A stretch of DNA of 64,000 bases from Acidobacteriota bacterium. GTDB taxonomy: Bacteria > Acidobacteriota > Holophagae > Acanthopleuribacterales > Acanthopleuribacteraceae. The translations under genes were made by a program, and so were the position numbers. The notes beneath the pieces were generated by a model. That model was given only the letters and a program-made list of their open reading frames with translations. It did no database searches and was not told where the DNA came from. Of the stretch, positions 30,926 through 33,400 are shown in pieces. Position 1 is the stretch's first letter. The number at the start of each line of letters is the position of its first letter. The DNA is taken from assembly GCA_030066195.1 (NCBI GenBank), contig JASJCB010000006.1:1-64000 (forward strand). The letters are read 5' to 3'.

Positions 30926-30967
30926 CACTATATAGTGGTTGACATGAAATCTAAAACCATATATTGT
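30926..30967 (+). promoter_or_regulatory. Sigma-70-like promoter with adjacent perfect palindrome
   Basis: TTGACA (30939-30944) and TATTGT (30962-30967) are separated by exactly 17 bases. Immediately upstream lies CACTATATAGTG (30926-30937), a perfect 12-bp palindrome ending 1 base before the -35 box. The region is AT-rich against a GC-rich background. It reads toward the two-gene unit starting at 31030, leaving a leader of about 55 bases. It is the best sigma-70-like promoter I can see in the window. Confidence 0.65.
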
Positions 30968-31029
30968 GGTGAAAACGCGGAAGAGATTGCCTTCTTTTTT
31001 CGACATATTTTTCAATTACAAGGTGTGGA

Positions 31030-31455
31030 ATGTCTTATTGGAATCAGTTTCATGTTTCAGCACGCCACTCGGAAGCCATCGCCATTCTCAACCACGTACG
31101 CCACTACTTAACGGGCCGTAAACCCGCTCCGCCGTCAGGGGCGCAGCAGTCCATATGCCGTAAAGCCGTTGCCCTGGAAGGGTTTGCGGCCGGTTCCGAC
31201 GATAGTTTCATCGAGGTAGACGCCTTGTCGCCCGCGTTCGAGTTGTCCAACGCCTTGCACGGTGCAGCCACCAGCCTGCACTATGACGAGGAACAACGTC
31301 GCAGCACGCTCGCCGGTTTTGAAGCTTTGTTGGACGGGATCCGACCCGACAGCGGCGAGGCGCATCGCGACCTGATGCACCTGGTGGAACGGTCCATGGA
31401 CAGCATCAGCGGCATGCCCGCGGAGGGTCAGGTCCGACAGCTTGTCGCGATCTGA
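31030..31455 (+). CDS. Unknown small protein, partner of HExxH-dCTP deaminase fusion
   Basis: 141 residues, not recognised. AAGG lies about 6 bases before the ATG. The sequence is soluble and mostly helical, with the acidic C-terminal stretch EAHRDLMHLVERSMDSISGM. A Pro-rich segment (GRKPAPPSGAQQ) separates the first 27 residues. It sits directly downstream of the strong promoter and ends 7 bases before the fusion gene's ATG at 31463, so the two are co-transcribed. A regulatory or antitoxin-like role for the downstream enzyme is only inference. Confidence 0.6.
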   Translation: MSYWNQFHVSARHSEAIAILNHVRHYLTGRKPAPPSGAQQSICRKAVALEGFAAGSDDSFIEVDALSPAFELSNALHGAATSLHYDEEQRRSTLAGFEALLDGIRPDSGEAHRDLMHLVERSMDSISGMPAEGQVRQLVAI

Positions 31456-31462
31456 CGGGTCC

Positions 31463-33400
31463 ATGCAGTCGCCCAACGTCCACCGTGAAGCGGCCTACAG
31501 CATTGTACAATCTGAGCTGGAAAAGGTAGATCGTATCCGGCGCAAGCGGGTTTCGCCCGCCATCGGCGTCGCCGTGGATGTGATTGCCGAATTCCTGGCC
31601 CATGCGCTGGAGGAGGTGGAAGACGCCTACGACCTGAAGACCCTGCGGTCCCGCCTGGCCGTGATTACCTTTTTCCTCAACACGGTTCTGCGCAGTATCC
31701 GCGACACGGCGACCTACTGGGCCATGCCCCTGATTCGCGAATGCTACACCGCTTGCGGCATCGACCCGGAACAGCGCACCATTACCATCGTGCAAGCCCA
31801 GGAGAACGAAACCTACTCGGTGATTCCCAACATCATCGGCATCCTGCGACGGCAGATCAACTTGCACGAGGGCTCGGAGCGCTCCAAGGTTTGGGAACGC
31901 TGGGAGAAGGAACACCCCATTATCGACATCTTCACCATCCCGGCCGAAGCGCGTTACGATATTGCCTCCATCGCCATGATCGGCCACGAGGTCGGTCATA
32001 TCTATTGGGTCACACCAAGCGGCCGCAACTTCCTGGCTCGTAAGATCGACAGCTTCGGCGAAAAGGTTTCGGAGCCCCACCTGGAGGAATACCTTTCCGA
32101 CGAGGTGGCGCGTTTTCTCCTGGGTCCCGCTTTCGATTTCGCCATGGTCAAGCTGTTGGTTTCCATGCCGCTGGACGCAAGCCTGGGCTGCGCTACGCAC
32201 CCATCAAGCGAGAGCCGCATCCGGCGATGCCTGGAGAGCCTGCGCGGTTACCGGTCGGGCAGCAGGACCTCGGAGTTGAGCGCCAAGGCCTATCTGCGCC
32301 ACGAGGAGTTGAACACCTGCCTGGATCACATGATCGGCGCCCTGGAAAAAGCCGTCGACCGACACCATCCCGAAGAGGCCGAGCGACCGATTGACCGCGC
32401 CACCGCGCGCCTTGCCGCCGACATCATCGCCGACCCCGGCTTCAAGCACAAGCGCGCCACCTTCAACTGTTCCCTACTGGCGATCTGGACCTGGATCCGG
32501 CCTGAACTGGACGCCATGCGCCCGCCGTTCGAGCATGTCACGCGTGACGCGCCCATCGCCATCTCGCCCAGGCGCGCCGTGATCGGGGTCAGTCTCTATT
32601 ACTACAGCGGCGCCTTCGCCACCAATAGCAACGAATACTACGCTCATTCCGACAAAAGCGATACCGAGCGCATCGCCTTTATTCGCCGCACCCTGGTCAA
32701 CCAGCTCAAATACGCGGTCGGCCTGCACGATTTTGTCAAGAAGGCCCAGGAGCGTTACTGCGGCGACAATTTCGAGAACACCGATTGGGATCGCGGATTG
32801 TGGGACATGCGCGAGCGTAAGGAAGGCGCGCCGCTGGCGGTCGTGCCGTCCATCCACCCCCGCGAACAATACGGCCCCCATTCCATCGACCTGCGCCTGG
32901 GTAACAGCTTCCTGATCAACCGGCTGACCAAGTTCGCCTACATCGGCAACCGGCTGTTGCGCGGCGGCGGCGATCCGGCCTCGGAAGGGGCGCATATCAA
33001 GAACTTCTACGACGAACTCTACCTGCCCGTGGGTGACGAATTCATCCTCCATCCACACCAGTTCATTCTGGCTTCGACCCTGGAATACGTCAGCATGCCC
33101 GGCGACTATTACGGCCTGGTGCTGGGCCGAAGCTCCTGGGGGCGGCTGGGCTTGAATATTGCCGCGGCTACCATGGTGCAGGCCGGGTTCAAGGGCTGCC
33201 TCACCCTGGAACTGCGCAATCTGGGCGAAACGCCCTTGTCCCTGAAGGTGGGCCTGCGCATCGCCCAATTGACCCTGTCGGCGGTTCCCGAACACAAGAG
33301 CAAGACCAGCTACCTGCAACGGGCCGATAAATATATCGGCTCGGTTTCGGCGGAAGTCTCCAAACTACACAGCGATCCCGATTGGGACATCCTGGATTGA
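31463..33400 (+). CDS. Fusion of HExxH metallopeptidase-like and dCTP-deaminase-like domains
   Basis: 645 residues, starting at ATG 31463; an in-frame TTG at 31442 is possible. The N-terminal half has a gluzincin-type site: HEVGH (H175, E176, H179), then EEYLSD (E208/E209, D213) as likely third ligand, and THPSSESRIRRCLE, resembling the HPSxExRI motif of M48 peptidases. No membrane helices are seen, unlike HtpX/Ste24. The C-terminal about 170 residues match dCTP deaminase/dUTPase: HSIDLRLGN, GRSSWGRLGL (S557, S558, R561) and FKGCLTLELRN (E583). These align in spacing with E. coli Dcd S111, R115 and E138. Both sites look intact. I know of no described protein with this pairing. Confidence 0.75.
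   Translation: MQSPNVHREAAYSIVQSELEKVDRIRRKRVSPAIGVAVDVIAEFLAHALEEVEDAYDLKTLRSRLAVITFFLNTVLRSIRDTATYWAMPLIRECYTACGIDPEQRTITIVQAQENETYSVIPNIIGILRRQINLHEGSERSKVWERWEKEHPIIDIFTIPAEARYDIASIAMIGHEVGHIYWVTPSGRNFLARKIDSFGEKVSEPHLEEYLSDEVARFLLGPAFDFAMVKLLVSMPLDASLGCATHPSSESRIRRCLESLRGYRSGSRTSELSAKAYLRHEELNTCLDHMIGALEKAVDRHHPEEAERPIDRATARLAADIIADPGFKHKRATFNCSLLAIWTWIRPELDAMRPPFEHVTRDAPIAISPRRAVIGVSLYYYSGAFATNSNEYYAHSDKSDTERIAFIRRTLVNQLKYAVGLHDFVKKAQERYCGDNFENTDWDRGLWDMRERKEGAPLAVVPSIHPREQYGPHSIDLRLGNSFLINRLTKFAYIGNRLLRGGGDPASEGAHIKNFYDELYLPVGDEFILHPHQFILASTLEYVSMPGDYYGLVLGRSSWGRLGLNIAAATMVQAGFKGCLTLELRNLGETPLSLKVGLRIAQLTLSAVPEHKSKTSYLQRADKYIGSVSAEVSKLHSDPDWDILD

Follow-up and report, generated by a model that had tools for sequence, protein, structure and literature searches.

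Several described systems lie close to the locus analyzed here. In nuclease-protease pairs, trypsin- or caspase-like proteases activate an MBL-type nuclease, and such pairs are shared among defence systems (PMC12799240). Deaminases provide another precedent for phage defence, with AvcD being held by an RNA antitoxin (PMC10511110). Long Argonautes are encoded in operons in which the associated proteins are nucleases, Sir2, VirE-N and membrane proteins (PMC6299218, PMC10620215), and a word search of these two papers returned no peptidase partner of Argonaute.

The present locus lies in a 64,000-nucleotide stretch of an Acidobacteriota contig (the window) and consists of a small gene followed by a gene that joins a peptidase-like domain to a dCTP-deaminase-like (DCD) domain. 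We put at roughly 0.5 the probability that it belongs to a defence-type cassette that is mobile and has a specialised dCTP-deaminase effector under the control of a soluble M48-like peptidase and a small helical partner. The genes and the sites upstream of them are as follows:

30926 to 30937, no strand: 12-bp perfect palindrome CACTATATAGTG, possible operator, repeated partly at 30957-30969
30939 to 30967, + strand: promoter-like TTGACA-17-TATTGT, 10 of 12 consensus bases, consensus match only
31030 to 31455, + strand: gene 1, small 141-aa protein, positional counterpart of the small first gene of about 30 related operons
31463 to 33400, + strand: gene 2, 645-aa fusion of an M48-like gluzincin domain (residues ~1-430) and a DCD domain (~455-645)

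The two open reading frames that the preliminary description had read as an operon of a small gene and a fusion gene were both confirmed at these positions. Residue numbering of gene 2 assumes the ATG start at 31463, with an alternative TTG start at 31442. The GC content and third-codon GC of both genes match those of neighbouring genes, and both are thus regarded as ordinary coding sequences. The gene 1 product had zero matches in Pfam, NCBIfam, PADLOC and PHROGs, and it belongs with a group having versions of ~145 aa. The promoter-like site lies about 60 bp upstream of gene 1 within an AT-rich intergenic stretch (GC of 0.42 in comparison to 0.57 for the window), where it is flanked by the palindrome CACTATATAGTG and its partial copy (30926-30969). 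The sequence CACWATATWGTGG is exact at 30926-30938, and the partial copy at 30957 has 2 mismatches; since the palindrome pattern has 4 matches in the window in comparison to 1.9 expected, it is the placement alone that is suggestive, and the palindrome and its partial copy make self-regulation of the operon possible.

Relatives were traced by tblastn of plasmids, then by a joined-profile scan of genome contigs, plus a viral scan. The results showed that in related loci the same parts are three separate genes, in the order small protein, HExxH protein and DCD, which mostly abut or overlap. This order was found by tblastn in Bradyrhizobium quebecense (L003), in E. coli P1-like plasmids (L006) and in Emticicia oligotrophica (L005). 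The joined profile detected 80 DCD loci in genome contigs, and 11 came from the viral scan; a HExxH gene stands directly before the DCD gene in about 28 of all these loci, the two genes in most cases overlapping slightly or being a few bases apart, and the small gene is directly upstream of the HExxH gene in nearly all of the 28. With only the N-domain as query, an initial viral scan had zero matches. Carriers of the three-gene form are plasmids, a P1-like phage-plasmid, Bacteroidota, Pseudomonadota, Geobacter and Aminicenantes, and one further operon came from the Bacteroidota sample (L126, DCD E=3.7e-41). At this last locus (L126:2865-6851) the divergent HExxH-DCD operon is followed by a 128-aa gene and then by a gene for an NA37 nucleoid-associated protein; the HExxH gene of Bradyrhizobium yuanmingense (L010:4587-5953) seems interrupted, with two frames and an internal TGA.

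Among about 30 related loci, the fused form was found in the window only. A false fusion arising from a frameshift or a lost stop was ruled out, as the frame is open and a linker takes the place of the separate DCD gene's start. The junction is marked by the following stretch:

32702 to 32755, + strand: conserved C-terminal stretch of the peptidase domain (L414, K417, K431)

The relatives' HExxH protein ends just past this stretch, where the DCD gene begins, and the window protein continues into the linker. The fusion announced in the preliminary description is thus real, but it is an exception, and the search for the same fusion and its small neighbour in other genomes returned operons of separate genes in the same order. 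As proteins that are fused commonly function together, the fusion supports a physical complex of peptidase and DCD, and suggests that the two proteins interact.

The peptidase-like domain carries three motifs, at the residues where a gluzincin-type site (HEVGH, EEYLSD and HPSSESRI) had been proposed:

31985 to 31999, + strand: HEVGH, residues 175-179, predicted metal-binding/catalytic motif; H175, E176 and H179 invariant in all homologues aligned
32087 to 32101, + strand: E209 to D213 (E-Y-L-S-D), presumed third metal ligand, like M48 ExxAD; invariant
32198 to 32218, + strand: H246-P247-S-S-E-S-R252, counterpart of M48 HPxxxxR; P247 and R252 invariant, H246 nearly so

Over 30 sequences, P160, H175, E176, H179, E209, D213, P247 and R252 are invariant and G178 and H246 nearly so, even though the 30 divergent homologues have only about 13-20% identity to the window protein. 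The conservation of the HExxH residues on which the earlier reading depended was therefore found, and a chance HExxH, a motif of little weight by itself, was ruled out by seven residues being invariant across divergent homologues. By a simple pattern scan, the spacing from HExxH to ExxxD is some 34-78 residues and HPxxxxR follows another 32-48 residues on, which is the order of M48. The N-terminal 430 residues had no match above any cut-off, and the scores to PF01435 (M48) were below the 20.3-bit cut-off, at 12.5 for the window and 16.1 for the E. coli homologue; we thus call the domain M48-like and not a member of M48. An hhalign comparison with Ste24-type M48 gave E=8.8e-7 and a probability of 91% over the ExxxD-HPxxxxR region. 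The HExxH family profile also picks Ste24-type M48 genes in genomes, and four weak genome matches (L127-L130) were rejected as cassettes since they are true Ste24 peptidases. No clear transmembrane helices were seen in the HExxH proteins checked, and, judged by its sequence, the domain is distantly M48-like and soluble. In comparison to the Ste24/HtpX group of M48, the cassette protein shares the order of HExGH, ExxxD and HPxxxxR and the profile-profile match to Ste24, but falls under the Pfam cut-off, has a long helical N-terminal region and is without clear transmembrane helices. The predicted structure of the N-domain (pLDDT 61.5) is of usable confidence for residues 1-260 only, a Foldseek search with this low-confidence model gave no PDB match at E<=0.001, and no solved relative of the HExxH proteins was found. 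A 1058-aa HEVGH protein beside a pentapeptide-repeat-like gene (L131:4820-7993) gave a weak profile match and is unrelated or of doubtful relation.

For the small protein, the model of a homologue other than the window's own (L013) was all-helical with a pLDDT of 80.6, and had no PDB matches. In one group, all 19 of 19 small proteins start with M-hydrophobic-x-Ala/Ser, ahead of the helical core and with low predicted confidence, and this start is a possible site of docking or cleavage. Profile comparison of the small-protein groups gave a weak match between the proteobacterial and the Bacteroidota proteins and none for the window's group, so that, with homology between groups undetectable in this way, the small proteins may be analogous proteins that occupy equivalent positions.

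The DCD domain is marked by three features:

32861 to 33280, + strand: DCD domain, residues 467-606 (PF22769, E=2.9e-30; TIGR02274, E=1.4e-31)
33128 to 33145, + strand: R556-S557-S558 to R561, predicted nucleotide-binding/catalytic Ser and Arg
33209 to 33211, + strand: E583, counterpart of catalytic E138 of E. coli Dcd by alignment

The curated cut-offs were passed (109.6 vs 92.8 bits for TIGR02274 and 105.8 vs 27 bits for PF22769), and the best PDB match of the C-terminal domain was E. coli dCTP deaminase (E=1.7e-20). The Pfam, NCBIfam and PDB matches thus agree on the C-terminal DCD fold with S557/S558, R561 and E583 as key residues, as had been predicted from the sequence. S557, R561 and E583 align with S111, R115 and E138 of E. 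coli; the E. coli Dcd row of the alignment was entered by hand as a yardstick, and the same comparison was obtained from the PDB match and from Pasteurellaceae rows. The Ser/Arg/Glu set is retained in the cassette DCDs with rare changes, and a KY stretch is conserved too. The canonical TAH-type His loop is shortened or altered, reading AATMVQAGF in the window, and the sugar-site Asp before Pro-Gly (ID/VD-PG motif) is Gln or His in most cassette DCDs, being kept in L016 and L023. With the canonical Asp and His lost, the exact substrate may differ. The thirty cassette DCDs, the window's among them, fall into a single clade with support of 98/92, which 98% of the bootstrap trees recover and from which housekeeping DCDs are separate. 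Contig C46 of the window genome encodes such a housekeeping DCD, and C197 gave a shorter match that is dUTPase-like; identity of the cassette DCD with the housekeeping enzyme was rejected on the basis of the separate genomic copy and the separate clade, and the cassette DCD is therefore regarded as an additional, specialised copy. In comparison to the Dcd family of dUTPase fold (PF22769/TIGR02274), the likeness lies in the scores above curated cut-offs and in the Ser, Arg, Glu and KY residues, while the differences are the clade of their own, the absent TAH-type His, the Asp that is mostly Gln or His, and the link or fusion to a peptidase beside a housekeeping DCD.

The HExxH proteins linked to a DCD also form one clade, and its deep groups match those of the DCD tree, namely the window with L009/L023 and Bradyrhizobium-like sequences, the Bacteroidota and the proteobacterial group. 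This indicates that the cassette parts travel together. The exact position of the window is unsure due to long branches in both trees.

The small gene and the HExxH gene were also found behind long Argonaute genes, in eight Bacteroidota loci without a DCD (L120, L121, L122, L124, L125, L132, L004 and L005, with Spirosoma and Emticicia plasmids among them), where the order is long Argonaute, small gene and a HExxH protein homologous to the cassette's. All 6 of the 6 Argonautes scanned were recognised by the PADLOC model pAgo_II, with E values between 1.7e-215 and 3e-302, while those of L132 and Spirosoma were assigned by position and aligned motifs. The GID and RDG motifs are retained, so these Argonautes may be active nucleases, and the HExxH proteins linked to them form a clade of their own. 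Because the pair occurs here without a DCD, it looks like a portable regulatory unit and not a DCD-specific one. We tentatively propose, at somewhat less than even odds, that the small helical protein and the soluble M48-like peptidase are a swappable immune control unit that has joined at least two unrelated partners, specialised DCDs and long Argonautes, which would act by proteolysis and which in the window is fused to its effector. The Argonaute operons often include a sigma-factor gene, and Spirosoma has a PD-(D/E)XK nuclease ahead. A PIF1-like helicase gene comes directly after the Argonaute-small-HExxH set in two loci (L125:6929-9079 and L132:3811-6024), and a multiubiquitin gene lies near the Spirosoma operon (L004:1-200).

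That related peptidases pair with Argonaute, likewise a sensor-type partner, speaks for the alternative that we rank first by a narrow margin, in which the DCD-like domain would bind dCTP, dUTP or a phage-modified nucleotide and switch on the peptidase, the true effector, to cleave a host or phage protein. The change of the sugar-site Asp to Gln or His could weaken catalysis or shift specificity, and a fusion would pass the signal directly; the catalytic Glu, Ser and Arg are however retained in essentially all members, which a pure sensor would not need, and we consider this alternative unlikely in comparison to a deaminase effector.

The family is rare and its spread patchy. Within the window's phylum, 1 of 297 genomes was positive, the window itself only. 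After removal of the four true Ste24 matches, 8 of 396 genomes remained in the Bacteroidota sample: L126, the centre genome and six that belong to the Argonaute-linked clade, one of which had no Argonaute gene in the stretch covered. The Pseudomonadota sample gave 2 of 399, one being the centre genome and the other unclear. A search of 5426 genomes found the E. coli cassette in 8, and each time the carrier was a plasmid of about 90-110 kb. Conjugative plasmids and P1-like phage-plasmids (L087) are among the carriers of the cassette. On the P1-like plasmids the cassette fills the pmgF-mat interval, where phage D6 holds simB, a superimmunity accessory, and in Emticicia the genes hsdR and hsdS of a type I RM locus flank the DCD operon. 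Known defence neighbours amounted to 45 PADLOC families among 110 neighbours in comparison to 8 among 110 for other DCDs, counted by family model and not by locus, with several overlapping models per protein, and the defence-gene excess near DCD operons is modest. Neighbouring genes include AbiEi, CapP-like, E1-like, HerA-like and Tn7-type genes. ImmA/IrrE-type (CapP-like) peptidase genes lie at L009:2413-3318, L013:7162-7710 and L058:6921-7451, and E1-like genes of ubiquitin-activating type near two operons at L041:7160-8533 and L011:7985-9409. The window copy sits between glycosidase genes and the flagellar operon, with no defence island there, and at the flgI site of four same-family genomes the flagellar operon is kept, other genes are upstream and the cassette is absent. 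A setting in defence islands, which was raised earlier, or in mobile elements was seen for Emticicia and the P1-like plasmids, with a modest enrichment overall, and was not seen for the window itself.

A three-gene operon that opens with the small gene and is carried by plasmids and by a phage-plasmid would also fit an addiction or competition module, with the DCD as toxin and the small protein and peptidase as the antitoxin arm, so that loss of the element frees the toxin and phage protection is a by-product. The palindrome and promoter-like site upstream of the operon agree with such a module, and homologous regulatory pairs with different partners resemble promiscuous antitoxin networks. 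One copy nevertheless lies inside an RM locus and another in a superimmunity slot, both typical sites of defence cargo, and many copies are on chromosome-size contigs, where addiction brings little. This explanation comes next in order and appears improbable. The least probable explanation is an extra dCTP deaminase that feeds dUTP/dTTP to element replication or uracil-DNA, with the HExxH protein as a maturation factor or regulator: the DCD domain scores above the dCTP-deaminase equivalog cut-off, phages often carry DCDs and uracil-DNA has been proposed for such phages (PMC11990801), but the window genome already has its housekeeping DCD, DCDs of the clade were never seen without the peptidase except for one case at a contig edge, canonical residues are altered, and the peptidase has no obvious part in nucleotide supply.

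The defence reading is supported by the fixed order of abutting or overlapping genes, the matching clades of DCDs and peptidases, the conserved catalytic residues, the fusion, the patchy spread, the mobile carriers, the RM-locus and simB slots, the absence of the cassette at the flgI site of same-family genomes, the separate housekeeping DCD, the Argonaute-linked pairs, and the precedents of protease-activated effectors and deaminase defence. Weighing against it are the setting of the window copy between glycosidase genes and the flagellar operon, the modest excess of defence genes, the loss of Asp and His in the DCD, the peptidase domain scoring below the M48 cut-off, and its predicted structure (pLDDT 61.5) without a solved-fold match. 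Under the defence reading, the deaminase would be restrained at rest by the peptidase and its small partner, and a cue on infection would alter one or the other of these two. The deaminase would then be freed by cleavage, either of the small protein or of the assembly of peptidase and deaminase, and may turn dCTP into dUTP and so stall or poison the DNA synthesis of the phage. The fusion of the two larger genes in the window is in keeping with one working complex. The operon, its gene order, the motifs, the clades, the mobility and the fusion are observed, whereas proteolysis, its substrate, the trigger, the order of events, the defence role and the direction of control are inferred. If this reading is true, a metallopeptidase would join the proteases controlling bacterial immune effectors, the dUTPase-fold DCD family would gain a defence role, and systems that drain nucleotides and Argonaute systems would make use of one and the same regulatory pair. 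The compact operon, of about 2 kb, is present in a P1-like phage-plasmid of E. coli.

With regard to known systems, neither of the two window proteins matched a PADLOC v2 model up to E=1, the relatives had no convincing match, and membership of a known defence family was rejected as there was no PADLOC, NCBIfam or informative PHROG match. The pairing of a peptidase with a DCD or an Argonaute was not found in the open-licence PMC literature, and the family libraries and the preliminary description, which knew of no account of this domain pairing, agree with this. AvcD-type antiphage deoxycytidine deaminases are zinc-dependent and have a fold other than the dUTPase fold, so the precedent of antiphage deaminases applies by analogy only. 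The earlier appeal to dCTP deaminases as antiphage factors accordingly stands insofar as a defence role is plausible, but the dUTPase-fold DCD family has no PADLOC match. The likeness to AvcID and dCTP deaminase defence is that the cassette would remove dC nucleotides on infection, while no PADLOC model fits the cassette DCD and a protein partner and peptidase take the place of the RNA antitoxin. The likeness to long Argonaute operons is that eight pAgo operons end with the small gene and a homologous HExxH gene; the difference is the HExxH peptidase-like partner itself, since the published associated proteins include no peptidase. Trypsin-like or caspase-like protease domains and MBL nuclease domains are absent from both window proteins (Pfam, NCBIfam). 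The nuclease-protease pairs resemble the cassette in that a protease is linked to an effector enzyme, through separate genes or by fusion, in various defence contexts; they differ in that here the protease is an M48-like metallopeptidase that accompanies a deaminase or follows an Argonaute, activation being our proposal. We rate the pairs of PMC12799240 as the nearest concept, the parts being new and enzyme defence under protease control being known.
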